From the NCBI GenBank assembly GCA_021801705.1, contig JAJYXP010000030.1, positions 1 through 34,123 of the forward strand: a stretch of DNA of 34,123 bases, read 5' to 3'. The notes beneath the pieces were generated by a model that was not told the DNA's origin, searched no databases, and worked only from the letters and a program-made list of their open reading frames with translations. This document shows positions 7,782 to 21,620 of this stretch, one piece after another. Source of the DNA: Pseudomonadota bacterium (GTDB lineage: Bacteria > Pseudomonadota > Gammaproteobacteria > Burkholderiales > Sulfuricellaceae). Every line of letters starts with the position of its first letter. Within the stretch, counting starts at the first letter, position 1. The position numbers and the translations under genes were made by a program.

Positions 7782-7800
7782 CAGGCGAATCTAGCATAAA

Positions 7801-7829
7801 AAAAAGCCCCGCACTAGGCGGGGCTTTTT
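7801..7829. terminator. Rho-independent terminator after the OmpA-family gene
   Basis: A 12-bp perfect stem AAAAAGCCCCGC (7801-7812) pairs with GCGGGGCTTTTT (7818-7829). It has A and T runs on both sides and can work in both directions. It lies 14 bases behind the ompA-family stop on the minus strand, and 19 bases before the mtaD start. Confidence 0.93.
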
Positions 7830-7843
7830 CTGACCTGGGAAGC

Positions 7844-8548
7844 TTACTTCTTGGTCGGAACCTGAATTTCCGGTTCAACGGTGACGCGGCGGTCAGGTTG
7901 CAGGCAGGCGATTATCTTCTTCGAGCCCCTCACGCCTTTGCAGGCTTGCTTGGTATTGGCTTCGGGGTTCGGCTCGGATTCGCCCTTGCCGACAGTCTTG
8001 ACGCGGTCGGCGGCAATGCCTTTGCTCACCAGATAGGTCTTGACCGCGGCGGCGCGGCGCTCGGAAAGCTTCTGATTGTATTGGGTTGTGCCGATGCGGT
8101 CGGTGTGGCCGGTTACCAGCAACAGTTCCACTTCAGGGTGGGCTTTCATGCCTTCGACCACCTTGTCGTCCAGTTCCTTCTTGCCTTCCGCCCTGACAAT
8201 GGCCTTGTCGAAATCAAACAGGGTTTCGGCCTTGAATTCGGCTTTCACGGCAGGTTTTTCAGGTCCGGCAACGACGGGTGCTGCAGGCACTGCAGGCGCT
8301 GGAACATATTCGGCTTTTTTCGGCTCCGGTTTTTTCACCAGATCCGGGTCGCATTCGGCAGTCGCCATGGCCGGGGTCCAGTAGCCGGTACGCCAGCACT
8401 GGTTGTAGTTGTTCCTGACGGGGGTGCCGCGGCTGTCGATCAGGTAGCCGGAATTGGTCACGTCATGTGCAAGAGCGGTGCCGGTGGCGAACAAGCCGAC
8501 CAGCAGCGTAATATTCAGGGCAAATTGTTTGGCAAGCGTGTTTTTCAT
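7844..8548 (-). CDS. ompA: OmpA-family outer-membrane/peptidoglycan-binding protein
   Basis: A 234-residue exported protein that anchors the outer membrane to peptidoglycan. A signal peptide spans residues 1-27 (cleavage after TALA). A short N-terminal segment with two Cys (51 and 66) is followed by a Pro/Ala/Lys-rich linker (70-105). The C-terminal OmpA-like domain (about 108-225) has TGHTDRIGT with Asp150 and NQKLSERRAAAV with the Arg of the diaminopimelate-binding site. There is no N-terminal beta-barrel, as usual for the short betaproteobacterial OmpA. The start at 8548 is fixed by an AAGGAG nine bases upstream; the frame is open further upstream but without a signal peptide. The promoter is at 8645-8674. 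A Cys pair near the C-terminus (203, 215) may form a disulfide. Confidence 0.93.
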   Translation of the reverse strand: MKNTLAKQFALNITLLVGLFATGTALAHDVTNSGYLIDSRGTPVRNNYNQCWRTGYWTPAMATAECDPDLVKKPEPKKAEYVPAPAVPAAPVVAGPEKPAVKAEFKAETLFDFDKAIVRAEGKKELDDKVVEGMKAHPEVELLLVTGHTDRIGTTQYNQKLSERRAAAVKTYLVSKGIAADRVKTVGKGESEPNPEANTKQACKGVRGSKKIIACLQPDRRVTVEPEIQVPTKK

Positions 8549-8767: not shown

Positions 8768-9451
8768 ATGAGTTTAACCACCACCGGGGAGTCTGCCGTG
8801 CCTCTGCTTGCTGATCTTTTTTCGCGTTCAACGGATGGTGTGTTCGCCGTAGACTTGAAAGAACGCATCGTCTTCTGGAACGATGGCTGTGAACACCTGC
8901 TCGGGATTCCCGCGCAGAAAGCCTTGGGACGCGCCTGCTATGACGTGGTCCATGCGTGCGATCTGTCGGGCCAACCTTTCTGTAAGACAGGCTGCCATAT
9001 GGCGCGCCTGGCCGAGGGCGGTTCCGCCCCCCAGGCGATTCCCCTCCGGTTCTGTAACGGCCGGGGTAAAATGCTGAAACTCTCGGTGCGCACTGTGCTG
9101 GTGCCGTCGCAGCAGCGGAACCAGTGGACCGTGGTGCACTTGTTGTATCGCGGGGAGATCGCAGACGAATGCGAGCCGTTGGAGCAGTTCGACCGGCAGC
9201 AGTCATGGATGCCGGAAGGAAAGCGCATCAGGAATAAGACGTTGCCTCCTCTGTCCGTTGACCTCTTGACCGCGCGGGAAAGGGGAATCCTCCGTCTGTT
9301 GGCGGGGGGGCATTCATCTTCAGTGATTTCACGGCAGTTGTGTATCAGCCACGTGACGGTGCGCAATCATATCCAGCACCTTATCGGGAAACTGGGAGTG
9401 CATAGCCAGTTGGAGGCGGTGGCCTATGCCTACCGCCATAACCTTATCTAA
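8768..9451 (+). CDS. PAS domain LuxR-type transcriptional regulator with a cysteine cluster
   Basis: A 227-residue soluble DNA-binding regulator. The N-terminal half (about 13-125) is a PAS domain: FSRSTDGVFAVDLKERIVFWN is the usual opening, and the GRACYDVVHACD segment follows. The C-terminal LuxR-type helix-turn-helix (about 166-224) has LTARERGILRLLAGG and ISHVTVRNHIQHL. Cys57, Cys64, Cys72 and Cys76 are closely spaced in the PAS domain, with further Cys at 41 and 96. This suggests sensing through a metal, an Fe-S centre or thiol redox, not proven. There is no phospho-receiver domain, so it is not a classical response regulator. It is the first gene of the sulfur island and the obvious candidate to bind the two shared palindromes at 9924 and 19849. 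No strong Shine-Dalgarno is seen. Confidence 0.88.
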   Translation: MSLTTTGESAVPLLADLFSRSTDGVFAVDLKERIVFWNDGCEHLLGIPAQKALGRACYDVVHACDLSGQPFCKTGCHMARLAEGGSAPQAIPLRFCNGRGKMLKLSVRTVLVPSQQRNQWTVVHLLYRGEIADECEPLEQFDRQQSWMPEGKRIRNKTLPPLSVDLLTARERGILRLLAGGHSSSVISRQLCISHVTVRNHIQHLIGKLGVHSQLEAVAYAYRHNLI

Positions 9452-9508: not shown

Positions 9509-9781
9509 GTGCAAAAAAAGATCGCGGTGCTGGTGCGGGAGCGGCAAGGTGAGGCGCTCAGGATGTCATTGGGGCTGATATTGGGGGACGATGCGGTGGA
9601 TGTGTATGTGCTTGACAGAAAACTGCAGCATACGGAGGCAAACGTGCTGTGCCTGGGAACGATGCAGGAAATGGAAATGAAGATTTACACAAATTGCCAG
9701 GAAAACGCGGATATGGAGTATTTGACAACCGCGGAAATTGCCCGGAGGTTGCCCCAATACGACAATATCCTGCCGTATTAG
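9509..9781 (+). CDS. DsrE-like small protein (putative sulfur relay)
   Basis: A 90-residue protein that begins with a DsrE-like beta-strand pattern (KKIAVLVRERQGEALRMSLGL, then VDVYVLDR). It ends in a Tyr/Leu-rich tail. Cys48 and Cys63 (TNCQEN) are the only cysteines; Cys63 is the better candidate for a persulfide carrier. Start: GTG at 9509, chosen because AAGGAGG lies six to twelve bases upstream; the ATG at 9507 is in another frame. It follows the regulator by 57 bases in the same direction. I recognise the fold type from pattern only. Membership of the DsrE superfamily is likely but needs a profile search. Confidence 0.72.
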   Translation: MQKKIAVLVRERQGEALRMSLGLILGDDAVDVYVLDRKLQHTEANVLCLGTMQEMEMKIYTNCQENADMEYLTTAEIARRLPQYDNILPY

Positions 9782-9835: not shown

Positions 9836-9923
9836 CAATTCCACAATTCCACAAACCGGGTCTTGCGCAGACCGCCCGCCCGAAAATTTCTTCGGCCAGC
9901 TTGCACGAATGGCGCGCCTCTAA

Positions 9924-9943
9924 AATGATGCATATACATCATT
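9924..9943. promoter_or_regulatory. Shared operator-like palindrome, copy A
   Basis: AATGATG-CATATA-CATCATT: 7-bp inverted arms with a 6-bp spacer in an AT-rich promoter-like stretch, about 210 bases before the second DsrE-like gene. A near-identical copy lies at 19849-19872; including flanks, 21 of 22 bases from 9922 to 9943 agree. AT-rich sequence behind it (9950-9975) could hold the promoter, but no box is clear. The stretch 9836-9993 has no gene. Confidence 0.65.
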
Positions 9944-9993
9944 CCATTCACTGATATCTATAGTAATACTTGGTACATGAACTATTCAGATAT

Positions 9994-10155
9994 ATGAGAA
10001 ACCTATGTTGCGGTGGGGGTGCCAGGATGAGCAGAGCGGTGCATGACATATTCTTGGCGATCCTCCGCCGCGGTGTGCGCCGGCCGCCATCGCACTGGTT
10101 CGATGGCCGGCAGGCGAGGGGTGTCTATGCCCGGTGTGGAGGGGGGCAGCGGTGA
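9994..10155 (+). CDS. Possible leader/small ORF coupled to the DsrE-like gene
   Basis: An open frame of 53 codons from ATG 9994 (MRNLCCGGGARMSRAV...). Its TGA (10153-10155) overlaps the GTG start of the next gene (10152), the pattern of translational coupling. An internal ATG at 10027 would give 42 residues. It has two adjacent Cys codons near the start, as does one possible leader frame behind the second operator copy (19941). There is no convincing Shine-Dalgarno and the arginine-rich composition could be chance in GC-rich DNA. Not recognised as a known family. Confidence 0.3.
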   Translation: MRNLCCGGGARMSRAVHDIFLAILRRGVRRPPSHWFDGRQARGVYARCGGGQR

Positions 10156-10454
10156 AGCTCGGGATCCTGGTCAATACCGCGAGACACCTGGACGACGTTG
10201 CCGGAATTACCCGGGCCGCCTTGGCCAAAAAACATCAGGTAATCATTTTCACCATGGACGAGGGCGCCAGGTTGCTGGAAAACCAGGTCTTTGTGTCGCT
10301 GGCCGGGCTTGAGGGTGTGACGCTGAGCATTTGCGATCACAGCGCCAAGATGCACGGGGTCAGCACTGTGGGCCTGCCGCCGAAGATCGTCTGTGGCAGC
10401 CAGTTGCACAACGCCATGATGAACCATAACGCCGACCGGGTGATCGTCCTGTAG
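10152..10454 (+). CDS. DsrE/DsrF-like family protein (putative sulfur relay)
   Basis: A 100-residue single-domain protein of DsrE-like alpha/beta pattern. It opens with KLGILVNTARHLDDVAGITRAAL and HQVIIFTMDEGARLL, then VTLSICDHSAKMHG with Cys61. It ends with CGSQLHNAMMNHNADRVIVL, Cys81 being the second cysteine. Cysteine at the end of the third strand, as at Cys61, is where DsrE-type proteins carry sulfane sulfur. The start is a GTG at 10152, with a purine-rich GGAGGGGGG tract 8-14 bases upstream; an in-frame GTG at 10134 lacks one. Expected to be cytoplasmic and to exchange sulfur with the TusA-type protein encoded at 13959. Confidence 0.78.
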   Translation: MKLGILVNTARHLDDVAGITRAALAKKHQVIIFTMDEGARLLENQVFVSLAGLEGVTLSICDHSAKMHGVSTVGLPPKIVCGSQLHNAMMNHNADRVIVL

Positions 10455-10501
10455 CAGGCGATTGCCGGCGCGCACGTGTGGATCGAAGAGGGGGATGGCC
10501 C

Positions 10502-10672
10502 GTGAATATACTTTATCTGTTAAATGACGGGGCGGACGCCTCATCCAATGAATGGATCGAGGCACTGGCCAGAGATCACCGGGTAGAGGTGATCGACCTC
10601 AGGAAAAAGGAAATTCCGTATGACGCGCTCGTGGACAGAATCTTTGCGAGCGACAAGGTCATTTCCTGGTGA
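10502..10672 (+). CDS. Short DsrH/TusB-like protein
   Basis: A 56-residue protein, MNILYLLNDGADASSN... ending FASDKVISW. The opening strand and the terminal DKVISW resemble DsrH/TusB, the third subunit type of DsrEFH complexes, but the protein is about half the usual length and has no cysteine. The GTG start at 10502 has GAGGGGG upstream. It follows the DsrE-like gene by 47 bases. Together with the genes at 9509 and 10152 it may make a DsrEFH-like complex; the low length leaves the family call uncertain. Confidence 0.6.
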   Translation: MNILYLLNDGADASSNEWIEALARDHRVEVIDLRKKEIPYDALVDRIFASDKVISW

Positions 10673-10720
10673 GGCGTGATGCCGGTGGATGGACGACAAC
10701 GTGCTGAGGCGAACTGAAGA

Positions 10721-12472
10721 GTGAACGGAACGGCACCCATTACTTTGCGCGATTCGCTTTCCCGTCGGCGGTGGACGTCCGGGGTGGAGGTCGCCCCCCT
10801 GGCACACGTTGCGGTCATGCTCCTGTCCCTGGCTGCGTTCCTCACGCTTTTCGTCTTCCGCGCGCAGGATGACAACCGGCTGACAAGCTGGCAGTGGGTG
10901 TTCGCCGACGCCGATGTGTTCAGGATCACACCCATCCTGGCCGTCGGGCTGCTACTGGCCTTTGCTTTGGCAAGAATTCCGTTTCCCCGGCGCCGCCCGG
11001 CGAGCGCGCTTTTTGTTTTATCCTTTGCCGTGGGCGCGCTGTCGTGGGCCGAACCCGAAGTCATCGTGGATGCCGCCAGATATTTCACGCAGGCCAAGCA
11101 TGTCGAACTCTACGGCGTCGGATATTTCCTCACCGAGTGGGGCGGGAAAATTACCGCATGGACGGACCTGCCGCTGGTGCCTTTGCTTTATGGCCTGATC
11201 TTCAGCCTGCTGGGTGAGAACCGGATATTTATCCAGGTCTTCACCACGCTGCTGTTCTCGGGCACCGTGGTGCTGACCTACCACATCGGCAAAACATTGT
11301 GGGACGAGGCCGCCGGGGTTTACGCCGGCGCGCTGCTGCTCGGGATGCCGTACCTGCTCGCGCAGGTGCCGCTCATGCTGGTGGATGTGCCCACGATGTT
11401 TTTCCTCACCCTGGCGGTCTTTATGACGATCCAGGCCCTTGAGCGCGGCGGGACCGGGCTTATGGCGCTGGCGGCAGTGGCGGTGGCGCTCGCCTTCTGG
11501 ACCAAGTATTCCGCCTGGCTGATGCTGAGCGTGCTTCCGGTTGTTTTTCTCGCGCGGCACCGGAACGGGCCGCGGTCCGTGCGGCTCCGCGCCGGCGCAC
11601 TGACTGCGGCCTCTGCGGTCCTGATCGGAACCGTCCTGTTGCCGAACATTGACGTCATCATGGGGCAGCTTGAGCTGCTGCAAAGCTATCAGGCGCCCGG
11701 CCTCAGGCGCTGGGAAGAGAGCTTCGTCTCGACCTTCCTGTTTCAAATTCATCCGTTTATTACCTGCGCGGCGCTGTTTTCCGCCTACGCCGCTTACAAG
11801 CGCCGGGATTCCAGGTACGCCATTATCCTGTGGCTGCCGCTGCTGCTGGTGCTGCTGGAGATCAAGCGTATCCGTTACCTGCTGCCGGTGTTCCCGATGC
11901 TGGCGCTGATGGCCTCCTACGGGCTGCGGGAGATCCGGAGCGGGGAAGTAAGGAAGTATGTCGTCCTGTGCATCGTCACCTCGTCCGTCGTGCTCATGGC
12001 CTTCGGGTTCCTGCCTTTTGCGCAGAAGGCGAGCGCCGTGAACCTGAAACAGGCCGGGGAGTATCTCGATTCCCTGGCGGCGGACAGGGCGGTAGTCATC
12101 GCCCTGCCGCAGCTCCATGCCCCTGTCAATCCGGCCGTCTCTGTGCCCATGCTGGATCTGTTCACCTCCAAGCGCCTGGTCTATCACCATGATTCGGTGC
12201 CGGCGCCGGCCGGGGAGGCGGCGAACAAGTCGCCCTTGCGGTTTACGTGGGAGTACCGGAACCCGGCATACTATGCCGCCGGGACGGACGGCCCGGGGGA
12301 TACCGCCGTGGTGGTGATCGCCAGCGACCCCGCCCAACCCCTGCCGGCTTCCGCCGGTCAGCGGCTGCAGGGTTATCGCCTGTCACGGGAGTTCATCGAT
12401 CCGGAAAACGTTTTCGGATACAGAACGATCGTGAAAGTGTACTTGCCGGTGCGGGAGGCGCCACAAGTATGA
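10721..12472 (+). CDS. GT39/ArnT-like integral membrane glycosyltransferase
   Basis: A 583-residue polytopic membrane protein. It has an N-terminal membrane segment (about 27-46), roughly ten more hydrophobic helices to about residue 430, and a C-terminal soluble part (about 430-583), probably periplasmic. The layout and the acidic residues in the first loop (EPEVIVDAARYF, 111-122) are those of the PMT/ArnT clan, which moves sugars from polyprenyl phosphate to protein or lipid on the outer face of the membrane. LEIKRIRYLLPVFPMLALMASYGL near residue 385 is the typical RY(L)LP motif of this clan. GTG start at 10721. It lies between sulfur-relay genes and a sulfur transporter, an odd pairing. 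The acceptor is unknown. Confidence 0.8.
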   Translation: MNGTAPITLRDSLSRRRWTSGVEVAPLAHVAVMLLSLAAFLTLFVFRAQDDNRLTSWQWVFADADVFRITPILAVGLLLAFALARIPFPRRRPASALFVLSFAVGALSWAEPEVIVDAARYFTQAKHVELYGVGYFLTEWGGKITAWTDLPLVPLLYGLIFSLLGENRIFIQVFTTLLFSGTVVLTYHIGKTLWDEAAGVYAGALLLGMPYLLAQVPLMLVDVPTMFFLTLAVFMTIQALERGGTGLMALAAVAVALAFWTKYSAWLMLSVLPVVFLARHRNGPRSVRLRAGALTAASAVLIGTVLLPNIDVIMGQLELLQSYQAPGLRRWEESFVSTFLFQIHPFITCAALFSAYAAYKRRDSRYAIILWLPLLLVLLEIKRIRYLLPVFPMLALMASYGLREIRSGEVRKYVVLCIVTSSVVLMAFGFLPFAQKASAVNLKQAGEYLDSLAADRAVVIALPQLHAPVNPAVSVPMLDLFTSKRLVYHHDSVPAPAGEAANKSPLRFTWEYRNPAYYAAGTDGPGDTAVVVIASDPAQPLPASAGQRLQGYRLSREFIDPENVFGYRTIVKVYLPVREAPQV

Positions 12473-12500
12473 ACATAAGTATAAACAATTCAGGAGATAG

Positions 12501-13931
12501 ATGATGGAAGGTGTCGAGAAACGAAATCAAGTGTGGGTCTTCGTCATCATCGGTTTTTTGTCGTTGCTGACGATGGTTACCTACTCGATGCACGAGTATT
12601 ACATCTATCTTGCGGCCTATCTGTGGTTCGGTTTCGTCTACGGCATGTGTCTGCAGTACGGCCGGTTCTGCTTCTCCTCGGCCTTCCGCGACCTGTTTGC
12701 CGTGGGCGTGCCACGCATGGCGGTGGGCATCATGATCGCCATGGTGCTGTTCGGCACGGTATCGGCCTTCGTCACGGCCACCGGCAATAGCACCTTCCAT
12801 CCCGCGCCCTACGGCATCCACTCGGTGATCGCCGGTTTCGTCTTCGGGGTGGGCATGGTACTCACCGGAGGCTGTGCCTCGGGTTCGCTGTACAAGGCTG
12901 GCGAGGGCAACGCGACAGCCCTGCTGGTGATACTCTCGATCAGCGTGTCGCAGGCGATCTTTGCGGACATCGGCGGATGGGCCAACAACCTGGTGCCGTA
13001 CTCCTGGCACCTGTCGGCGGTGTCCAAGGGGCTGCCGGCGGCGATAAACGCCAGCGACGGCTGGATGGACCAGTATCTCGCCGGCTACGTGTGGGATCAG
13101 CCGGTGTTGCTGTTCAGCCAGTGGCTCGGGATCCGCGATCCATTTCTTGCGGCCTACGTGGGCGACGTGCTGGTGGGCGTCGTCGTGCCCGCGACGGTGG
13201 TGCTGATCGCGGTCTACCTGATCTGGTACCGTAAAGGGTATCTGCGCAAGCGCGCGGAGGCGCATCTGCCTACCGCGGGACTGGGGGTGGAGCTCGCGGG
13301 CTACTGGAGCATGATCACAGCCTCCAAGCGCACGGCGATCGCGGGCCTCGTGCTCGGCATTGCTGCCGGACTGCACATGTATGTGATGAAGGGGATGCAG
13401 CTCAAATTCGGCGCGAGCAATTTCGGTACGCTGATGAAGGAAATGGGCATCACCTCCGGGCTCTCCGCCAAGGGTACGGTATTCGACCCCGGCTACTGGT
13501 ATGTCACCACCCAGGAGGCGCAGTGGGTGGGGTGGGTGTTCAACAAGCTCGGCGCGGACAACATGGACAACATCTACTTCGGCCTCGAGAACGGCCTTCC
13601 CAACCCGCTCATCAACCCGGCCGATTGGATGTCGCTCGCCCTCATCGGCGGTGCCGCGGTGATGGCGCTGCTGAGCAACGAGTTCAAGTGGAAGGGCACG
13701 ACCCGGGAACTCGCCATGTGGGCCATCATCGGCGGCACCTTGATGGGCATCGGCGCCCGGCTCGGCTTGGGATGCAACGTGGGCGCGTTCTTCGTCCGGG
13801 TGTCCCAGGGCGACGTCTCGGGATGGTTGTTCGGGCTCGGCATGGTCGGCGGCGCCTATGTCGGCGTTAAATTTTTCAACTGGTGGACCGAAAGAAAACT
13901 GGCCAGGGAAATGGCCGCCTGCGGACTGTAA
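12501..13931 (+). CDS. YeeE/YedE-family sulfur-compound transporter
   Basis: A 476-residue inner-membrane protein with about nine to twelve hydrophobic helices, related to the TsuA (YeeE) thiosulfate importer. The conserved cysteine motifs are present: GRFCFSSAFRD (Cys57), TGGCASGSLYKAGEG (Cys125) and GLGCNVGAFF (Cys425). In TsuA such cysteines pass thiosulfate by transient S-H contacts. The longer length and internal repeat fit the two-halves YedE type. An AGGAG (12492-12496) lies four bases before the first ATG and seven before the second (12504), so the second ATG may be the true start. It is followed 27 bases later by a TusA-type gene, the usual partner of this family, so the imported ligand is probably thiosulfate or a related sulfur compound; selenium compounds are an alternative. 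Confidence 0.92.
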   Translation: MMEGVEKRNQVWVFVIIGFLSLLTMVTYSMHEYYIYLAAYLWFGFVYGMCLQYGRFCFSSAFRDLFAVGVPRMAVGIMIAMVLFGTVSAFVTATGNSTFHPAPYGIHSVIAGFVFGVGMVLTGGCASGSLYKAGEGNATALLVILSISVSQAIFADIGGWANNLVPYSWHLSAVSKGLPAAINASDGWMDQYLAGYVWDQPVLLFSQWLGIRDPFLAAYVGDVLVGVVVPATVVLIAVYLIWYRKGYLRKRAEAHLPTAGLGVELAGYWSMITASKRTAIAGLVLGIAAGLHMYVMKGMQLKFGASNFGTLMKEMGITSGLSAKGTVFDPGYWYVTTQEAQWVGWVFNKLGADNMDNIYFGLENGLPNPLINPADWMSLALIGGAAVMALLSNEFKWKGTTRELAMWAIIGGTLMGIGARLGLGCNVGAFFVRVSQGDVSGWLFGLGMVGGAYVGVKFFNWWTERKLAREMAACGL

Positions 13932-13958
13932 TGCGTGATAACAGGAGGGGTGTAAGCG

Positions 13959-14210
13959 ATGAAATTCGACAAGAAGAGTGAAGGCGTATACGTGCTGGAC
14001 GTCTGCGGGTATGTCTGCCCCCATCCCCAGCTCTACACCAAGAAGGCGCTGGAGAAAATTCAGGCGGGGGAAACGCTGGAACTGGTGTTCGACAATCCCT
14101 CCTCCGGAGAATCCATCGCCGCCATGTGCGAAAGCACGGGGAACGAGGTTGTCGACAAAGCCGGCCAAGGCGGCAAATATATCTGGAAGATCAAAAAAGC
14201 GGCGGCCTGA
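13959..14210 (+). CDS. TusA-family sulfur carrier protein
   Basis: An 83-residue small cytoplasmic sulfur carrier. The family motif CPxP appears as CPHP with Cys20 as the persulfide-bearing residue, preceded by Cys16 (VCGYVCPHP). A further Cys lies in AAMCES. Length and beta-alpha pattern fit TusA/SirA-like proteins. Shine-Dalgarno AGGAGG is ten bases before the ATG. It sits directly behind the YeeE/YedE transporter, a pairing known from many genomes, and should accept sulfur from it or pass it to the DsrE-like proteins upstream. Confidence 0.93.
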   Translation: MKFDKKSEGVYVLDVCGYVCPHPQLYTKKALEKIQAGETLELVFDNPSSGESIAAMCESTGNEVVDKAGQGGKYIWKIKKAAA

Positions 14211-14222
14211 GGAGAAGACCCT

Positions 14223-14381
14223 ATGAACAAGACGAGCCTTTGGATGGTCGTTATCGTCGCCACGGCCTGGATCGGGTTTCTGACCGGCTACGCCGTGTCG
14301 TCCCATAGCGGCGGCGCCAAGCCAGCCGCCGAGGGGGCGCCCGCAGCGGAAAGCGCGGGCGCGGGCGGGTACGGAAAATGA
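14223..14381 (+). CDS. Small single-pass membrane protein
   Basis: A 52-residue protein starting 12 bases behind the TusA-type stop, with GGAG at suitable distance. Residues 5-25 form one hydrophobic membrane helix (SLWMVVIVATAWIGFLTGYAV). The rest is Ser/Gly/Ala/Pro-rich and low in complexity (SSHSGGAKPAAEG...). The short Lys-bearing N-terminus suggests an N-in, C-out orientation, with the tail in the periplasm. It is not a known family to me. The tight spacing suggests cotranscription with the transporter, for which it may be an accessory subunit. Confidence 0.65.
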   Translation: MNKTSLWMVVIVATAWIGFLTGYAVSSHSGGAKPAAEGAPAAESAGAGGYGK

Positions 14382-14432
14382 GCATGCCGGCGTGAACGGC
14401 GTCCGGGCTGGGCGGTGGAACGGCGGATGCCT

Positions 14433-14577
14433 CTAGTAGTCAGTCATATTGAAACCGGTGGACAATCTCGTCATTCCGGCGAAAGCCGGAATCCAGAAAA
14501 ATCAACAACCTGGACACCGGCTTTCGCCGGTGTGACGGTTCAACTCATCCATGCTTTTCACCGTGACTGACTACTAG
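14433..14577. mobile_element. Small palindromic element with 14-bp terminal inverted repeats and two REP-like hairpins
   Basis: Terminal repeats CTAGTAGTCAGTCA (14433-14446) and TGACTGACTACTAG (14564-14577) enclose about 117 bp. Inside are two hairpins in opposite orientation: ATTCCGGC-gaaa-GCCGGAAT (14473-14492) and ACACCGGC-tttc-GCCGGTGT (14514-14533). The second is the inverse of the first with paired changes that keep the stem. No coding frame. It fits a non-autonomous REP-type or MITE-like element. The bases 14382-14432 before it show nothing. Confidence 0.8.
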
Positions 14578-14779
14578 GAGCCTGTCGGACTTGAAGAATC
14601 GAAGCGAAGTGGGTCAAGCAGGCAAGCCGCGTAGCGGATGCTCGCAAAATGCGGCTGGGCGAGGACAGATTTTGCCGGTTTTGCAGGTCAATAGTCATTC
14701 TATTGACCAAGAAAGCGGTGAAATATGGACCGCCCAGGCGGATTTGCAGCCGATTTCCTTTAAGTCCGACAGGCTCCTA
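14575..14779. mobile_element. MITE-like element with 18-bp perfect terminal inverted repeats
   Basis: TAGGAGCCTGTCGGACTT (14575-14592) is perfectly inverted at 14762-14779. If the outer TA on each side is the target duplication, the terminal repeat is 16 bp and the element 201 bp. It abuts, and shares its TA with, the end of the element at 14433-14577, so it probably inserted into that end. Inside is a further hairpin around 14689-14706 (GGTCAATAG ... CTATTGACC). There is no transposase, so it must be moved by a related IS elsewhere. It ends only 14 bases before the FAD oxidoreductase start. Confidence 0.82.
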
Positions 14780-14793
14780 GGCCGCACGGGGGC

Positions 14794-16197
14794 GTGTCCG
14801 TGAAGTCCGGAACCGATTGCCTCATCTTGGGCGGCGGGCTCGCCGGTCTGGCGGCCGGCCGGGCGCTCACGCAAGCCGGCCGCCGCGTGCAGGTGCTGGA
14901 AAGCGGGGATGCCGTCGGCGGGCTTGCGCGCACCGTGGCGCACGACGGTTTCCGGTTCGATCTCGGCGGCCATCGCTTCTTCACCCGCGACACGCACGTC
15001 GAGCGCTTCGTGCGCGAGCTGCTCGGTGACGAGCTCGTCACGGTGCCGCGCACCAGCCGGATCTATCTGCGCGGCAAATGGATCGAGTATCCGCTGCGGC
15101 CCATGAACGCGCTGTTTGGGCTCGGCCTCCGCGCCAGCGCGGAGACTCTGCTTGGGTATGGCTCGGCGAGGGTTGCGCGGCGGATGCTGCCTGTGCCGCT
15201 GGTGTCGCTGGAAGACTGGGTTGTGGCCCACTTCGGGCGGCCGTTGTTCGAACTTTATTTCCGGGATTACAGCGAGAAGGTCTGGGGCATCGGCTGTCGT
15301 GACATCAGCGCCGAGTGGATGGCGCAGCGCGTCCAGGGACTGTCCCTGGGCGCCGCCATTCAGCGTGCGTTTCTGAAGCGCGGCCCTGCGCTGCCGACGC
15401 TCGTGGACCGGTTTCTGTACCCGCGGCTCGGGATCGGCCGCATCGCCGGGCGGTTGCGCGAGGAGATAGAGCAATCGAGCCCGATTGCCACCGGCACCCA
15501 GGTGGTGCGCATACACCACGACGGACGGCGCATTGAGGGCGTCACCGTACGGCAGGGGGACCGGGTGCACGACCTTCCGGGCGGGGCGTTTCTGTCCACA
15601 ATCCCGCTTACCCAGGTTATGCAGGCGCTAACCCCGCATGCACCGGCCCATGTGCGCGCGGCTGCGGCGCAGTTGCGCTACAGGGATCTCGTCATCGTGA
15701 CGGTGATGCTTGACCGCGACCGGGCGACCGACCAGACCTGGATCTACTTTCCCGGCAAGGACATTCCCTTCGGGCGGCTGCACGAGCCGACCAACTGGAG
15801 CGCCGCGATGGCGCCGCCGGGGCGCACGCTCCTGGTGACCGAACGCTTCTGTTTTCGCGGCGACGCCACGTGGAACGCATCCGATGCCGAATTGATTGAA
15901 ACGACCGTGCATCATCTCGAAAAACTTGGGTTCATCCGCCGGCACGAGGCGCGTGACGGCATGGTCGTGAGAATTCCCGCGGCCTATCCGCTGTTCGATG
16001 TGGGTTACCAGGAACGCAGCCAGATCCTCTGCGATTACCTGGAGCGGTTCGAGAACCTGCGGGTCGCGGGCCGCGGCGGGCTGTTCCGCTACTACAACAT
16101 GGATCAGGCCATCGCCTCCGGGCTCGCGGCGGCGGAAGCGCTGCTGGGGCGTGACACGGAGATGCGCGCCACCGTCGCGGCGGGGGCCGTGCCGTGA
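14794..16197 (+). CDS. FAD-dependent amine oxidase/protoporphyrinogen-oxidase-like protein
   Basis: A 467-residue flavoprotein with an N-terminal dinucleotide-binding motif, LILGGGLAGLAAGRAL (GxGxxG at 13-18). The second conserved block GGLARTVAHDGFRFDLGGHRFF is typical of the amine oxidase/UDP-galactopyranose mutase-like superfamily. The C-terminal FAD block appears as LRVAGRGGLFRYYNMDQAIASGLAAAEALL. Relatives are often encoded beside polysaccharide or lipid glycosylation genes. Start: GTG at 14794, just behind a MITE, with GGGGG upstream; a second GTG is two codons on. Its stop overlaps the radical SAM gene start by four bases (GTGA). The substrate is unknown; a role in sugar or lipid modification is inferred from neighbours. 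Confidence 0.85.
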   Translation: MSVKSGTDCLILGGGLAGLAAGRALTQAGRRVQVLESGDAVGGLARTVAHDGFRFDLGGHRFFTRDTHVERFVRELLGDELVTVPRTSRIYLRGKWIEYPLRPMNALFGLGLRASAETLLGYGSARVARRMLPVPLVSLEDWVVAHFGRPLFELYFRDYSEKVWGIGCRDISAEWMAQRVQGLSLGAAIQRAFLKRGPALPTLVDRFLYPRLGIGRIAGRLREEIEQSSPIATGTQVVRIHHDGRRIEGVTVRQGDRVHDLPGGAFLSTIPLTQVMQALTPHAPAHVRAAAAQLRYRDLVIVTVMLDRDRATDQTWIYFPGKDIPFGRLHEPTNWSAAMAPPGRTLLVTERFCFRGDATWNASDAELIETTVHHLEKLGFIRRHEARDGMVVRIPAAYPLFDVGYQERSQILCDYLERFENLRVAGRGGLFRYYNMDQAIASGLAAAEALLGRDTEMRATVAAGAVP

Positions 16198-17711
16198 GGT
16201 GCGCGCTTATCATTCCCGCCTGGGTGCCGCAGGAGTTGTTTCCGCGCCAGACGGCGGGCTCGCAGATCAATTACTGGCAGCCGCTCGGCATGCTCTACAT
16301 CGCGGCGGCGCTGCTCAAGGCGGGGCACGAAGTGCGCTTCTTCAACGGCGCGTTCCTCACGCAGGAGGAAATCATGCTGCGCGTCGGCGAGTTCGATCCG
16401 CGTTTCGCCGGCATCTACTCGACGACCTTCGGCTGGAACAAGGCGGTGCAGACCGCCGAGGCCCTGAAGCGGCTGAACCCGGAGATATTTACCTGTGCCG
16501 GCGGCCCGTATCCGATCGCGATGCAGGAGCAGTGCCTGCACGACTGCGCGCACTTCGATGCGGTGGGTACCGGCGAGGGGGAGCTTACCGTTCCCGATAT
16601 GATCGAGCGGCTGGAGTCGGGCGGGAGCCTCGACGGCGTGCCCGGGGTGGCGTTCCGGCGGGGCGCCGGGATCGTCAAGAACCCGCCGCGCCCGCTCATC
16701 GAGGATCTGGACTCGCTGCCATTCCCTGCGCGCGAATTGCTGGGCGAGGCGGACCGCTATCTGCCGCCGCCCGGCACCTACCGGCGCAAGCCGGTTACGG
16801 TGATGCTGACCGCCCGCGGCTGCAACCGTAAGTGCCTGTTCTGCTTCCAGATCGACAGGCGCAGGCGCGCAGGCGTGCGCGGCATCCGTTTCCGCTCGAT
16901 CGAGAACGTGCTGGCCGAGATCGAGCACTGTCTCGCGCTCGGCTACCGTGAGATCAAGTTCTTGGACGACACGCTCGCAGCCGATTACGACCGCGCGCTG
17001 CGGCTTGCCAAGGAAATAAAGGCGCGCGGGCTTGACTTCACCTGGTTTGCCTCGGTCTGTGTGAACCAGGTGGACGAACCGCTGCTGCAAGCGTTCAAGG
17101 AGGCGGGCTGCTGGGCCATCCTGCTCGGCGCCGAAAGTGGTGCGCAGAAGAACCTCAATGCCCTGCGCAAAGGCTCGACCATCGATCACACCCGCGAGGC
17201 GGTGCGGGCAGCCAAGGCGGCCGGACTGCGGGTCAGTATGTCGTTCCTGTTCGGGATTCCGGGCGAGACCTACGAGGACGGCCTGAAGACCATCGAGTTC
17301 GCAATCGCGCTCGATCCCGATCTTGCGAACTTTCACGCCGTCGCACCGTTCCCCGGAACCGATCTCTACGAAAATCACGCGAAGTACGGCACGATCTCCC
17401 CGGACCTCAGGGACTATACCTACCAGGGCGCGGCGTTCGTGCCCTACACGATGACGCGCGAGCAGATTCACGATCTGCGCCAGCTCGCCTTCCGGCGGTT
17501 TTACTCGCGGCCGGGGTTTCTCCTGCGCCAACTGCTCCGGCTGCGCAACCTCAACGATCTCCGCGCCGCCCTGGCCGGCGTCAAGAGCCTGTTTTGGCTT
17601 TGGGCCCGGAACGGGTTGTTCGGCCGCAAGGCAGGCGCCGCCGCGCTTGCCGGCCGGCTACAATCGCAAGTACTCTCTGGCGAGCGCGGGATACATTCTC
17701 GGGTTGAATAG
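16194..17711 (+). CDS. B12-binding-domain radical SAM protein
   Basis: A 505-residue protein with an N-terminal cobalamin-binding-like domain (about 1-140; LGMLYIAAALLKAGHEVRFFNG, later TCAGGPYPI). The radical SAM core starts near residue 200 with CNRKCLFC, giving Cys210, Cys214 and Cys217 for the 4Fe-4S cluster (CX3CX2C). LLGAESGAQKNLNALRKG and FLFGIPGETYEDGLKTIEFA are core motifs of the BchE/HpnJ-like group. The classical DxHxxG cobalamin histidine motif is not seen, as in many relatives. It may methylate or rearrange an unreactive carbon, perhaps of a lipid or natural product. GTG start overlaps the flavoprotein stop. The last 54 bases overlap the 3' end of the convergent radical SAM gene. 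Confidence 0.9.
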   Translation: MRCALIIPAWVPQELFPRQTAGSQINYWQPLGMLYIAAALLKAGHEVRFFNGAFLTQEEIMLRVGEFDPRFAGIYSTTFGWNKAVQTAEALKRLNPEIFTCAGGPYPIAMQEQCLHDCAHFDAVGTGEGELTVPDMIERLESGGSLDGVPGVAFRRGAGIVKNPPRPLIEDLDSLPFPARELLGEADRYLPPPGTYRRKPVTVMLTARGCNRKCLFCFQIDRRRRAGVRGIRFRSIENVLAEIEHCLALGYREIKFLDDTLAADYDRALRLAKEIKARGLDFTWFASVCVNQVDEPLLQAFKEAGCWAILLGAESGAQKNLNALRKGSTIDHTREAVRAAKAAGLRVSMSFLFGIPGETYEDGLKTIEFAIALDPDLANFHAVAPFPGTDLYENHAKYGTISPDLRDYTYQGAAFVPYTMTREQIHDLRQLAFRRFYSRPGFLLRQLLRLRNLNDLRAALAGVKSLFWLWARNGLFGRKAGAAALAGRLQSQVLSGERGIHSRVE

Positions 17712-18737
17712 AATATTGGTGATGAAGTAGCACTCGTGGGTGCAGTAACAGCGCTGGTCGCGGATGGCGCGCATGGTCGTGCCGGCCTTTTCCGAGCGCA
17801 GGATTTTCCGCACGTCGTAGTCGTATGCCCGGACGTTGCCGAGACTCTCCGCGAGCATCTCGCAGGGATACGCCTCGCCGTTCTCTGTTAGCACCAGGTT
17901 CAGTCTCCCGGCATAGCACGGGATGAGCCTTCTTTGCTCAAGCAGGGTACGGTGGATCAGGCGGCGCTGCAGGATGTCCTGGGCCGCCTTCAGGCGCGCG
18001 CCGCGGAAGCGGTAGGTCGGCGCCGCCCGGTTGCGCAGATTCGCGGCCAGTTTGCCGATGGCCTGCTCGTATTTCGCGTGATCCACTTCCTTGTGGCTCG
18101 CGTCCGCCAGGTGGCCGCGTACCAGGGAGATGGTATGGGTACGGATATGTTTCAGGCCCTGCACGAATTCGATGATTTCATCCATCTGATCCTGGTTCTC
18201 GGAACAGAAAACGGTATTTATGCCGAGTTCAAGATTGGGATGGTCGTCCAGCAGTCCGGTAAGCCGGTGGTAGGTCTGCATGGCCTTGTCGAAGCCGCCG
18301 GGGGTGCGACGCAGCGCATCGTGCGCCACGCTCACGCCGTCGAGCGAGAGTTTGACGACGACGATGCTGTTGCCGCAGTCGCGCAGAATCTGCGCCGTGC
18401 GCTCGTGAATCAATTCCGGCAGCAGGCCATTGGTGGGATAAAGCATGATCGCCGGGCGGTTCTGCCGGTAGAAGACCCGGCTGATTTCAACCAGATCCTT
18501 TCTTAAAAAGATTTCGCCGCCGGAAAAGGCGAGCCACAGCAGCGGCCCCAGCGAGCGGGAGAGCTTGCGGATCTCCTCCAGCGACAGCTCGCTGGCGTCG
18601 GGTTCCGCCGCCTCGGCGCTTTGCAGATAAAAGCAGAACGGGCACCGGGCGTTGCACTTGCGGGTGACAAAGAAGGTGAGCTGGATGGGCTGGCGCTTCC
18701 AGGGGATCGAGCCGGCATGGCGTAGCCACGAATACAT
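17658..18737 (-). CDS. Radical SAM protein with SPASM-like C-terminal cysteines
   Basis: A 359-residue radical SAM enzyme. Cys28, Cys32 and Cys35 form the CX3CX2C motif (CNARCPFC), followed by FSGGEIFLRKDLVEI as the SAM-binding GGE block. Near the C-terminus CYAG, YPCEM and CYCTHEC give a cluster of cysteines like the SPASM/twitch auxiliary cluster, as in enzymes that modify peptides or other bulky substrates. The ATG at 18737 is preferred because it overlaps the stop of the GT2 gene by one base (TGATG); the frame stays open upstream but in antisense to that gene. The 3' end runs 54 bases into the convergent B12 radical SAM gene. Substrate unknown. Confidence 0.88.
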   Translation of the reverse strand: MYSWLRHAGSIPWKRQPIQLTFFVTRKCNARCPFCFYLQSAEAAEPDASELSLEEIRKLSRSLGPLLWLAFSGGEIFLRKDLVEISRVFYRQNRPAIMLYPTNGLLPELIHERTAQILRDCGNSIVVVKLSLDGVSVAHDALRRTPGGFDKAMQTYHRLTGLLDDHPNLELGINTVFCSENQDQMDEIIEFVQGLKHIRTHTISLVRGHLADASHKEVDHAKYEQAIGKLAANLRNRAAPTYRFRGARLKAAQDILQRRLIHRTLLEQRRLIPCYAGRLNLVLTENGEAYPCEMLAESLGNVRAYDYDVRKILRSEKAGTTMRAIRDQRCYCTHECYFITNILFNPRMYPALAREYLRL

Positions 18738-19741
18738 CAGTGTTTCCCGCTGAACGGGCCAAGGTTTCGGAAATGGAGCGTTAACCCGGCAACGGCGCCG
18801 GCGGCCACGGCCACGGGATAGAGCAGCAGGTAATACAGCGTTGCCATGACCGCAAAGCCTGAACCTTCGGCGCGGTGGAACGCGAGGAGCAGCCCCCGGC
18901 TTTTGAACAGATTGAACGCGAGCGCCAGGGACATGAGCGCCAGGAGCGCCGGCTTCCCGCTCAGAAAATAGCCGGGCAGCAACAGGCCGTTGAAAACGTA
19001 GGCGCACACGTTGACCTTGAGCTCCACCGAGGCGGTACCCGAATCCGCCAGCAGGTCCCGGTTCCCGATGGCGTAGCAGGTCCAGTACGTCGATTTGACA
19101 AAGGCATTGCGCAGCGACCGGAACAGCGAATAATCAAAGATATGCTGCACCTGGATGGCGGGGTTCATCACCAGCCGGCAACCGGCGCGGCGCAGCCGGT
19201 GGCTGAATTCCACGTCTTCCATGATCGGCAGCGGGCCTTCTGCGAAACCCCGGTGCCTGCGGAAGGTGTCCGCGTCCATGGCCAGTGCGTGGGTGGCGAT
19301 GTAATCGGCCGCCGGCGCGTGCCTGGTTTCAAAGTAATTGATGAAAACCGACTGAAAGCGGCTGCAGAAGCGCCGGTCGTATGGCGCCACCGTGTATGTG
19401 CCGCCCACGATTGTCCCCGGACCTTCGGCCGCCAGAGTTTTGACCGCCAGGGCAAGGGTATCGTCCTGTAGCAGGCAGTCGGCGTCCGTGAAGAAAAGTA
19501 TGGCGCCGCGGCCATGCTGCGCTCCCATGTTTCTTGCCAGGGCCGCGCCGCCGTGTTTCGAAAGCCGCACCAGCTTGCATGGATATCGCATAATCGCGGT
19601 GATGGAATTGTCTTGCGAATCGTCGTCCGCCACGATGACTTCGAAATTGTCATGGCGCGATGCCAGGGCGGCTTCCAGGCATTTTCCTATTGTGGTTCCG
19701 CCGTTGCGGTTGGGGATAATGACCGAGACGAGGTTTTCCAT
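18737..19741 (-). CDS. Family 2 glycosyltransferase with C-terminal membrane segments
   Basis: A 334-residue GT-A-fold enzyme. ENLVSVIIPNRNGGTTIGKCL opens the nucleotide-sugar domain, VIVADDDSQDNS is the next loop, and FFTDADC holds the metal-binding Asp86/Asp88. MEDVEFSHRLRRAG is the later ED motif. Two or three hydrophobic helices follow near the C-terminus (about 255-330), so it is membrane-attached with the active site in the cytoplasm. Start: ATG at 19741, right before the catalytic domain; an in-frame TTG 17 codons upstream is less likely. No clear Shine-Dalgarno. It is divergent from the rhodanese gene, with the shared palindrome copy B between them, and is coupled to the radical SAM gene. 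The sugar and acceptor are not known. Confidence 0.88.
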   Translation of the reverse strand: MENLVSVIIPNRNGGTTIGKCLEAALASRHDNFEVIVADDDSQDNSITAIMRYPCKLVRLSKHGGAALARNMGAQHGRGAILFFTDADCLLQDDTLALAVKTLAAEGPGTIVGGTYTVAPYDRRFCSRFQSVFINYFETRHAPAADYIATHALAMDADTFRRHRGFAEGPLPIMEDVEFSHRLRRAGCRLVMNPAIQVQHIFDYSLFRSLRNAFVKSTYWTCYAIGNRDLLADSGTASVELKVNVCAYVFNGLLLPGYFLSGKPALLALMSLALAFNLFKSRGLLLAFHRAEGSGFAVMATLYYLLLYPVAVAAGAVAGLTLHFRNLGPFSGKH

Positions 19742-19848
19742 TGTCGGATGCTGAAAGATGCAATATTCCGCTTCAAGCGGGTGAACGGGCAAGAACTGCG
19801 GAAATTCTCACTTACTCAGACTCACCCGGCCGTTTCTCGATTTGCTGC

Positions 19849-19872
19849 AAAATGATGCAAATACATCATTTT
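19849..19872. promoter_or_regulatory. Shared operator-like palindrome, copy B
   Basis: AAAATGATG-CAAATA-CATCATTTT, a 9-bp perfect inverted repeat with a 6-bp spacer, is a near copy of the palindrome at 9924-9943. It lies about 107 bases before the GT2 start on one side and about 280 before the rhodanese on the other. AT-rich sequence at 19885-19920 (with TTGTTA at 19890) may be the plus-strand promoter. Confidence 0.7.
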
Positions 19873-19940
19873 CATCGACAAGTAATCATTGTTAACTACT
19901 ATATCACATAGCAATACAAATTATTCTCCATAAGAGGTGC

Positions 19941-20152: not shown

Positions 20153-21178
20153 ATGAACAAGCGCTATAACAAATGGGAAATCTGCAGGGCCGGAATGCTG
20201 CCGGTTTTTTTTCTGTGCGCCGGGATCGGGACGGCCTACGCGGATCGCGTGATCGTGGACACGGACTACGTTCTTAAGCACAAGGACAAGCACGGCGTCG
20301 TGCTGGTGGATGCACGCGGGGCGTCGGATTACAAGAAGGGGCTCATTCCGGGCGCCGTTGTCCTTGGTGAAAAGCCCGGGGCGGTGGGCCTCCGGGACGT
20401 GGATGCGCGCATCCTGCCGGTGAAGAAACTCGAGAAAATCCTGGGAGATGCCGGGCTGACACGCGAGAACGAGATCATCGTGTATGGGGCCAAGGGCGAC
20501 ACGGGGCCGACGGTGGTGTTCTGGATCCTCGAATACCTGGGGGCGGAGAAGGCCAAGGTCTATATGGGGGGGATGGATGACTGGACAGCAGCCAAAAACC
20601 CCGTGACGAACGAGGCGCGCAAACTTCCTGCCGCGCACTTCACCGCCAAGGTGCAGGCGGACCGCCTGGCCACGACGGACTATGTCAGGAAAAACCTGCA
20701 GAACAAGGAAATTCAGTTCCTCGATTCGCGGACCGGGAAGGAGTATGAGGGAGACGACATCCGGGCGCTCCGTGGCGGACATATCGCGGCGGTCAACCAT
20801 GTCAACATCCCTTATGAGCAGGCCTGGAAGGATCCCGAGGCGGCGAAAAAGTTAGCCGAGAAGACGGTCAAAGACCGCGAGGGCATGACCTTGAAGGACC
20901 CTGCGGCGCTCAAGGAACTCTATAAGGGGGTGGACCCCAAGAAGGAAGTGGTAGCCTATTGCCAGACCGGCACGCGCTCCACCTATGTCTATACCGTGCT
21001 GCGGGATATGGGGTATCAGAAGGTCCGCAACTACGATGATTCGTGGATCGTGTGGGGCTCGGACCTGAATATGCCGGCCAGGAACGTGAGCTATTACGAC
21101 TTCGTCAAGGTGAATGCGGCCATGAAGCGGCTTGATGCGCTGGAGAAACAGCTTGAGGCGATAGCGCCCAAGAAATAG
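20153..21178 (+). CDS. Exported tandem-domain rhodanese (sulfurtransferase)
   Basis: A 341-residue protein with a signal peptide (1-30, cleavage after TAYA), so periplasmic. Two rhodanese domains follow: the first (about 31-155) has YGAKGDTG in place of an active-site loop and lacks the catalytic Cys; the second (about 165-310) has YCQTGTRS with Cys270 as the persulfide nucleophile. This inactive/active arrangement is normal for thiosulfate sulfurtransferases. The last 30 residues form a charged helix. A purine-rich GGGGGTGA precedes the ATG. It stands alone behind copy B of the operator and a leader with competing hairpins. Likely to act on thiosulfate or other sulfane sulfur outside the inner membrane, ahead of the YeeE/YedE importer. 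Confidence 0.92.
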   Translation: MNKRYNKWEICRAGMLPVFFLCAGIGTAYADRVIVDTDYVLKHKDKHGVVLVDARGASDYKKGLIPGAVVLGEKPGAVGLRDVDARILPVKKLEKILGDAGLTRENEIIVYGAKGDTGPTVVFWILEYLGAEKAKVYMGGMDDWTAAKNPVTNEARKLPAAHFTAKVQADRLATTDYVRKNLQNKEIQFLDSRTGKEYEGDDIRALRGGHIAAVNHVNIPYEQAWKDPEAAKKLAEKTVKDREGMTLKDPAALKELYKGVDPKKEVVAYCQTGTRSTYVYTVLRDMGYQKVRNYDDSWIVWGSDLNMPARNVSYYDFVKVNAAMKRLDALEKQLEAIAPKK

Positions 21179-21328
21179 CCGGGCGACTATGGTAACGAAT
21201 TAGATCGGCGTGAAGCTATTTCGCCCCGGCTGGCATCCGCCAGACGGGGCGTTGCCGTTCTGGAAGGAAAGAAGGCCGCATCTCCTGTGGTCAGTGCGAA
21301 ACGGTTTGGCCGGAAAAGGCAATCCCAC

Positions 21329-21520
21329 AAGTCGCCGGTTCGAGAGTTGTCCCCGCCGCATGCTGACCAATCCCGACAGCCCTTCAGCCCGATAACATTC
21401 GACGATCCGTCGCACTTGACGTGGTGTGAGCCCCAGCATCTTCGCTGCTTCATCCCGGCTTGTCTTATCCTCTTCCAGCAAGCCCGATGCCTGGGTTCGA
21501 TTCGCTTCCTTCCGGCTCAT
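21329..21520 (-). pseudogene. Remnant of an ISNCY-type transposase N-terminus
   Basis: About 64 codons encode a helix-turn-helix like that of ISNCY-family transposases: MSRKEANRTQ, then DEAAKMLGLTPRQVRRIVECYRAEGLSGLV and the closing block SNRRL. After SNRRL the frame (open to 21200) no longer matches a transposase, and the catalytic DDE part is missing. The frame is also open four codons upstream (to 21532). It is a truncated insertion-sequence fragment at the right edge of the island. The rest of 21179-21720 holds no other gene. Confidence 0.72.
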
Positions 21521-21620
21521 TAATTCCCCCATTTCAAAACATCCGCCGCTATTTTTAACAAGAAGAGATTAATCCCCAGCGGACATGACTGTTTTGCGCT
21601 AACACAATTTTCCTGCGCAG

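Follow-up and report, generated by a model that had tools for sequence, protein, structure and literature searches.

A conserved palindrome pair as the probable operators of a sulfur-handling gene cluster headed by a PAS-LuxR regulator

The window analysed in the present work—the whole stretch of 34,123 nucleotides of contig JAJYXP010000030.1 from a bacterium of the family Sulfuricellaceae (GenBank assembly GCA_021801705.1)—carries two near-identical palindromes, designated here as sites A and B, which, judged from the comparison of sequences, very probably serve as on-switches for a cluster of sulfur-handling genes, since distant carriers of that cluster keep both palindromes in place together with the gene for a PAS-LuxR regulator. 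What was a two-copy repeat in a single genome becomes in this way a predicted regulator–operator pair kept over several families and accompanied by a promoter geometry. The explanation favoured here, and held to be likely, is that of a local regulon, in which the PAS-LuxR protein activates the cluster from two operators of the class-II type; that the palindromes represent a conserved operator pair is almost certain.

The palindrome pair and its conservation

The palindrome AATGATG-N6-CATCATT is found, exactly where the initial annotation had placed it, at 9924-9943 and 19851-19870 with zero mismatches, the 22-mers 9922-9943 and 19849-19870 differing at one spacer base. The setting was also correctly described there: both copies lie in AT-rich gaps, 5' of a DsrE-like gene (A) and of a rhodanese gene (B), the latter copy being flanked by divergent genes, and a scan of the window at up to three mismatches returned only A and B, i.e. 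no third copy. The palindrome as originally proposed is thus real; it was, however, drawn too short, the relatives showing the longer form AAATGATGC-AAAT-GCATCATTT, which is the consensus of 20 aligned sites from various genomes. The two operators and the presumed regulator are as follows:

9922..9944, no strand assigned: operator A, AAAATGATGCATATACATCATTC; its 22-mer 9923-9944 agrees with the cross-genome consensus at 18/20 positions
19849..19871, no strand assigned: operator B, AAAATGATGCAAATACATCATTT; its 22-mer 19850-19871 agrees at 19/20 positions; between the divergent GT2 and rhodanese genes
8768..9451, plus strand: PAS-LuxR (GerE) regulator, the presumed binder of both operators (Pfam)

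In the whole genome of 2,837,534 bases, the exact palindrome occurs twice, both times inside the window, and this pair is significant because a first-order Markov model expects only 0.014 exact copies per genome of 2.84 Mb. Apart from the exact pair, the genome has no match with fewer than two mismatches, and the four others with two mismatches have no homologue of an island gene within 1.5 kb. Within the window, the count at up to three mismatches is not significant (two seen versus 1.2 expected; 31/100 shuffles gave two or more). Among 300 genomes of the order, an exact copy is present in seven (a control pattern in three), two copies being found only in the window's genome. The shorter core TGATG-N6-CATCA, counted four times in the window's genome and 0-7 times per genome in 12 genomes of the genus (reversed control 0-4), was rejected as a motif since it rises little above the background in the genus, and the outer bases of the palindrome therefore appear to matter. 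Two abutting copies of this core in the congener G062 (L232 10643-10674) precede a small gene pair that resembles, by eye, a toxin–antitoxin system of the VapB/PIN type; they are probably the operator of that pair and, considered as a relative of A and B, were rejected as unrelated.

The motif of 20 sites combines the window with sites from nine further genomes, two copies of site B coming from G315 and the near-identical site A of the sister genome G304 being omitted. The blocks AATGATG and ATCAT are invariant in 20/20 sites, and the other columns of the half-sites are almost constant (C15, T21 and A1 in 18-19/20), the left flank being near random with 0.05-0.32 bit per column.

The genes concerned belong to an island of ~13 kb between ompA and gyrA, absent in five congeners in which ompA adjoins gyrA (G014, G303, G305, G213 and G243); four further genomes (G062, G106, G145 and G273) are uninformative in this respect, having no ompA in the stretch upstream of gyrA. 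The order in the cluster is luxR, a gene for a 90-aa protein, site A, dsrF/H-like genes, GT39, yeeE and tusA and, further on, a B12 radical SAM gene; in the right part, a radical SAM gene and GT2 read away from site B to the left and the rhodanese gene reads away from it to the right. The search for other copies, made in a sample of 369 genomes of the class and extended by the palindrome and the regulator as described below, revealed complete or partial copies of the cluster in ten other genomes, which gives 11 copies together with that of the window. Site A is present in 11/11 copies and site B in 9/9 of those whose assembly covers it, at the same gene boundaries and with 16-20/20 matches to the consensus; the regulator gene accompanies them in all 11. 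The regulon suspected in the initial annotation thus gains support from the relatives, where the same sites, the same boundaries and the same regulator recur. Neither of the two outcomes which that annotation had named as speaking against it, scattered matches or a palindrome conserved in the absence of the regulator, was observed.

It should be pointed out that the relatives were found in different ways, and only the genomes retrieved by a profile of five dsrF-like proteins—run over the 369 class genomes blind to both site and regulator—form an unbiased sample. The profile matched 12 genomes besides the window's. In six of them, from six families (G316, G348, G440, G508, G598 and G614), the dsrF-like gene is accompanied by luxR, the 90-aa gene and GT39, and all six exhibit the palindrome (16-19/20) between the 90-aa and dsrF-like genes. 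The other six have no luxR alongside; yeeE and tusA are present in four of them (G329, G341, G553 and G649), and the remaining two, G451 and G546, carry a gene homologous to that for the 90-aa protein. Beside the dsrE-like genes of these six no comparable site was seen, the best reaching 11-15/20, as compared with up to 14 for the second-best matches at the positive loci. Regulator and site hence go together in 7/7 loci, the window included, versus 0/6 (p=5.8e-4), with the profile built from cluster proteins and the six negatives therefore also the more distant ones. The positive clusters each possess exactly two sites of at least 15/20, at the A and B boundaries, except that the contig of G348 ends before B.

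The remaining copies were entered through the palindrome itself (G313, G314 and G315) or the regulator (G304). In each of the former three, a single site gave access and the second was present at the predicted place: G313 and G314 show luxR, the 90-aa gene, site A, the dsrF-like gene, GT39, yeeE and tusA through to the B12 radical SAM gene, with GT2 and the rhodanese gene diverging from site B, and G315 has the same junctions in pieces, that between GT2 and rhodanese in two copies. At up to two mismatches, G313 has two exact sites 11.1 kb apart and two two-mismatch matches elsewhere, G314 one exact and one two-mismatch site 8.6 kb apart with one more elsewhere, and G315 three exact sites on three contigs with one match elsewhere. 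In G304 (gyrA 98%), operator A is identical, the left part of the island and the rhodanese gene are on separate contigs and site B falls in the unassembled gap. These two, the window's genome and G304, are the only ones with the full-length regulator among 22 genomes of the family, several of them incomplete.

Concerning specificity, the pattern AATGATGNANNTNCATCATT at no more than one mismatch matched 28/369 class genomes and its reversed control 4/369. In the seven cluster genomes of that sample, 13/13 matches are located at A or B, so that at this threshold the regulon in these genomes is the cluster itself. As a marker across bacteria in general, the exact palindrome was rejected, being mostly background: the scan of public contigs yielded at least 114 exact stretches, and among the 114 listed four hold homologues of island proteins, namely three clusters (L051, a Burkholderiales metagenome-assembled genome (MAG); L083, a betaproteobacterial MAG; and L093, a gammaproteobacterial MAG), where the site adjoins them and whose genomes are G313, G314 and G315, and L047. 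Six of the 114 listed fit the pattern ATGATGCANNTGCATCAT, three lying in a cluster and three (L081, L088 and L112) having no island-gene homologue.

The PAS-LuxR regulator and the promoter geometry

The regulator consists of an N-terminal PAS domain followed by a GerE domain (Pfam E=2.1e-15, residues 166-221), with no autoinducer-binding domain among its Pfam matches, and its best matches in the PDB are the helix-turn-helix DNA-binding structures of NarL. It is the only DNA-binding protein among the island proteins scanned, in agreement with the initial annotation, which had named it the sole regulator of the island. The cysteines C57, C72 and C76 are invariant in 10/10 aligned cluster regulators and C41 is kept in 9/10 (the G315 protein left out), while the segment TVRNHIQH of the helix-turn-helix is almost invariant; the cysteines may sense the sulfur or redox state. 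A regulator profile found a full-length protein on another contig of G315 with 324 bits, whereas the six site-less genomes gave at most 60.5 bits, from partial domains.

A homologue of the regulator outside the cluster bears on the question of what binds the sites. In L047, an Acidobacteria MAG, an exact site at 6945-6964, matching the consensus at 18/20, is located in an intergenic gap, ~310 bp upstream of the gene for a PAS-LuxR homologue that begins at ~7273 (region 6945-7998); the gene on the other side of the gap is large and reads away from it. This homologue shows 36% identity along its full length and keeps the three cysteines as well as TVRNHIQ; within the 8 kb examined there was no other match to an island protein. 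Chance is unlikely here because full-length homologues at this level of identity are rare: of the 300 order genomes, only G129 has one in addition to the window's own. The gene of the G129 homologue (L233 6912-10472) is situated directly 3' of an fccAB-like pair that consists, by eye, of a c-type cytochrome gene and one resembling flavocytochrome c sulfide dehydrogenase. Such a neighbourhood suggests a broader association of this family of regulators with sulfur genes; a gene of the Crp/Fnr type is also seen nearby.

For the promoters, a -10 matrix with approximate weights was scored against the distance from the 22-mer over ten sites per direction and compared with 2,000 mononucleotide shuffles. 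The mean score peaks 20 nt past the 22-mer from A toward dsrF (p=0.0005), from B toward rhodanese (p=0.001) and from B toward GT2 (p=0.002). On its other side, A faces the 3' end of the 90-aa gene, and this direction, taken as the internal control, is not enriched at offsets 18-22 (p=0.40). If the hexamer is taken as -12 to -7, the centre of the dyad comes to about -43.5. A -35 element at 16-18 bp spacing would fall on the end of the dyad or directly next to it, and the hexamers there match TTGACA at 2-4 of the six bases, such a poor fit being expected if an activator stands in. The possible -10 boxes in the window, at offset 15 from operator A (TATAGT) and at offsets 20-28 from operator B (TTAACT to TATATC), are the following:

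9959..9970, plus strand: possible -10 for operator A, TATAGT 9959-9964 or AATACT 9965-9970 (weak fit in the window)
19892..19905, plus strand: possible -10 for operator B toward rhodanese, TTAACT 19892-19897 to TATATC 19900-19905 (weak fit)

Such an arrangement recalls two known systems. Vibrio fischeri LuxR has an acyl-homoserine-lactone domain, and the sequence of the lux box is unrelated to the cluster dyad. The cluster regulator differs by its N-terminal PAS domain, but belongs to the GerE-domain type as LuxR does, and its presumed target is a dyad of similar size that, by calculation, would lie at a similar place: the lux box measures 20 bp and the activator is positioned at -42.5 (excerpt of PMC7585371). 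The profile search further matched EL222 (PDB 8a5r) in its helix-turn-helix part only, with E=6.4e-5; unlike EL222, which is light-activated, the cluster regulator has cysteines arranged as CX14CX3C that suggest redox or sulfur sensing. In EL222, too, a PAS(LOV) sensor precedes the GerE DNA-binding domain.

Mechanism and rival explanations

According to the proposed mechanism, the PAS-LuxR protein, whose gene opens the cluster, would bind each 22-bp dyad as a dimer, and the dyad, centred near -43, would replace the -35 element in a class-II-type activation. Operator A would drive a long rightward unit from the dsrF-like gene to the B12 radical SAM gene, whereas operator B would drive the rhodanese gene rightward and, by symmetry, GT2 and the radical SAM gene leftward; with this layout, all the structural genes except for luxR and the 90-aa gene would stand under one operator or the other. 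That the sites are bound by the cluster's own PAS-LuxR protein is regarded as very likely, and, given such binding, activation rather than repression takes the larger part of the probability. A more far-reaching proposal, only tentative, would have the protein sense sulfane sulfur or the redox state directly, with C57, C72, C76 and usually C41 forming an iron–sulfur or persulfide switch. It would then fire two operators, one of them bidirectional, for a system of sulfur import and relay linked with the chemistry of the radical SAM proteins and glycosyltransferases, acting possibly on the small membrane peptides encoded after tusA, the module being at home in many families of the class.

Several observations weigh against this picture. 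The regulator gene co-occurs with the whole cluster, so that the association does not single out the regulator, and a repressor overlapping the -35 place would look much alike. L047 is a single case found after the fact, and the rarity of such homologues was measured in the window's own order; the G129 regulator homologue (44%) has no TGATG-N6-CATCA within the 20 kb examined. Inside the motif, the right flank is mildly conserved as well (0.40-0.85 bit over four columns of the 20 sites). The p-values for the -10 box rest on ten partly related sites per direction, two of them, from G315, near-duplicates; the control direction toward the 90-aa gene has its highest means, both low, at offsets 19 and 32; and the window's own -10 boxes fit poorly at the offset of 20 seen in the relatives. 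The A+T-rich genome G451, devoid of the regulator, shows two 15/20 matches within a 16-kb stretch surrounding the dsrE-like gene, besides two one-mismatch matches elsewhere, while the wider stretches of the five other luxR-less genomes have no match of at least 15/20. Finally, the pattern at up to one mismatch still matches 21/362 non-cluster genomes, more than the 4/369 of the reversed control. These 21 genomes carry 22 matches, 21 of which were checked at a single locus in each genome: 18 lie within open frames and three outside, and none of the 21 loci has an island-gene homologue within ~1.5 kb. Because most of these look-alikes fall in genes, the excess over the control is probably due to coding bias; one of the three outside frames, TATGATGCATATACATCATT in G652 (L271 1501-1520), is nearly identical to site A and sits in a gap with no cluster gene within the 3 kb examined. 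The gene beside it resembles, by eye, a pseudouridine synthase.

The strongest competitor of activation, although itself improbable, is that the same PAS-LuxR protein represses from the same operators by covering the -35 place and is released by a signal. GerE-domain regulators are usually activators, and both the spacing, which fits a LuxR-type class-II activation, and the -35 hexamers with their poor agreement with TTGACA argue against repression. The overlap of the dyad with the would-be -35 element speaks for it, as does the example of SoxR and sHdrR, regulators of sulfur oxidation that act as repressors (excerpts of PMC10451225 and PMC12423496), although these belong to the ArsR type and not to PAS-LuxR (excerpt of PMC12423496). 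Less probable still is the idea that another factor, encoded elsewhere, binds the sites and just happens to control the cluster. The binding by PAS-LuxR is indeed deduced from comparison, and regulators of the CRP/FNR family also use 22-bp dyads; the strong sites of the cluster genomes are, however, confined to the cluster, the regulator gene accompanies every copy, and the L047 homologue outside any cluster has an exact site upstream. An operator of CRP/FNR itself was rejected, the half site being AAATGATG with its invariant AATGATG, in contrast to TGTGA-N6-TCACA or TTGAT-N4-ATCAA of those regulators.

Reading the palindromes as ends used in recombination or as what a mobile element left behind could appeal to two direct copies 9.9 kb apart within an island that the congeners lack, but is very improbable: the sites are inside the island and not at its ends, their spacers differ, their positions are kept across families, and a -10 box follows at a fixed distance. 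The differing spacers also led to the rejection of core sites of a tyrosine recombinase, together with the lack of a recombinase among the ten island proteins scanned, a scan that left outside the small open reading frames and the fragment 21187-21532. Palindromes arisen by chance deserve practically no credence; the count in the window at up to three mismatches is within chance, but this stands against the genome-wide expectation for exact copies and the fact that ten further genomes keep them in the same positions.

Cluster genes, related systems and neighbouring features

Besides the regulator, the cluster in the window comprises the following genes:

9509..9781, plus strand: 90-aa protein, probably of the DsrE superfamily (no Pfam or NCBIfam match)
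10152..10454, plus strand: DsrE/DsrF-like protein, counted from the conserved start MKLGIL; in this numbering, Cys61 is invariant in 5/5 aligned
10502..10672, plus strand: 56-aa protein, putatively DsrH-like
10721..12472, plus strand: GT39/PMT-type membrane glycosyltransferase
12501..13931, plus strand: YeeE/YedE (TsuA-like) sulfur transporter
13959..14210, plus strand: TusA sulfur carrier with the CPHP motif
14223..14381, plus strand: 52-aa peptide with one hydrophobic stretch
14794..16197, plus strand: FAD-dependent amine-oxidase-like protein
16194..17711, plus strand: B12-binding radical SAM protein, HpnJ/BchE-like, under the NCBIfam cut-offs
17658..18737, minus strand: radical SAM protein (weak SPASM match, seen in the L257 homologue)
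18737..19792, minus strand: GT2 glycosyltransferase, first gene left of operator B
20153..21178, plus strand: two-domain rhodanese with a signal-like N-terminus, first gene right of operator B; active-site motif CQTGTRS once, residue 270

Three small proteins of the cluster are DsrE-superfamily-like, two of them named tentatively. The DsrE-like protein itself scores under the Pfam cut-off (E=2.9e-4; 21.4 versus 22.7 bits), and the 56-aa protein, scanned only via its L257 homologue, gave no family match; its gene is present at 9/9 other cluster loci tested and at 1/4 control loci (L260). One or two small membrane-type peptides are encoded 3' of tusA in 9/9 clusters, by eye and with the window's included. 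The FAD protein was detected in five and not detected in three of the eight other clusters covering that part; in L236, L253 and L258, small frames after tusA resemble by eye remnants of the FAD gene (a dinucleotide-binding start, e.g. GLAG), as if it had decayed there.

The closest published systems are the YTD or yeeE-tusA-dsrEFH type II clusters, which likewise unite a YeeE/YedE-like transporter, TusA and a DsrE-like protein (excerpt of PMC13293266). In the window, yeeE adjoins tusA and the dsrF-like gene is ~2 kb upstream of yeeE, so that the three occur together; as for the dsrE/dsrF/dsrH set, its counterparts would be the three small genes mentioned above. Unlike the YTD clusters, the present one adds its own PAS-LuxR regulator with two operators, a rhodanese, and a pair each of radical SAM proteins and glycosyltransferases, and the six control loci (four with yeeE-tusA-dsrE, two with the 90-aa and dsrE-like genes) have neither the regulator nor comparable sites. 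The small membrane-type peptide of the cluster recalls, by description only, Hden_0678 of Hyphomicrobium denitrificans, a 56-aa membrane protein; the sensing of external sulfur by regulators is said there to be poorly understood (excerpt of PMC11582611). A literature search restricted to open-licence PMC articles found no published account of the regulator, the cluster or the palindrome regulon, and the present results provide an entry to this cluster by defining its operator sequence, its regulon boundary and a candidate sensor.

With regard to the history of the cluster, the identity between G313 (L234) and the window is uneven, as if the cluster were a mosaic: YeeE 85%, the FAD protein 82% and rhodanese 75%, as against LuxR 48%, the dsrF-like protein 56% and GT39 55%. 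For the other clusters, the sister species excepted, the identity of rhodanese reaches only 33-39%; site B has been retained all the same. Homologues of rhodanese were rejected as a guide to further clusters, since 231/300 genomes of the order have one and 29 other loci had no further cluster gene within ~1.5 kb; plasmids searched for a dsrE-like match gave none.

Two adjacent elements resembling miniature inverted-repeat transposable elements occupy 14434-14778, flanked by the genes for the 52-aa peptide and the amine-oxidase-like protein, the one at 14434-14576 ending in TAGTAGTCAGTCA/TGACTGACTACTA and that at 14576-14778 in AGGAGCCTGTCGGACTT/AAGTCCGACAGGCTCCT; parts of them match many places in the sister genome G304. 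Between the rhodanese gene and gyrA, an open frame with a helix-turn-helix (21187-21532, minus strand) is present, which resembles a fragment of an IS630-type transposase. At 122-494 of the window, on the minus strand, there is a gene for transfer-messenger RNA (Rfam RF00023, 228.6 bits).

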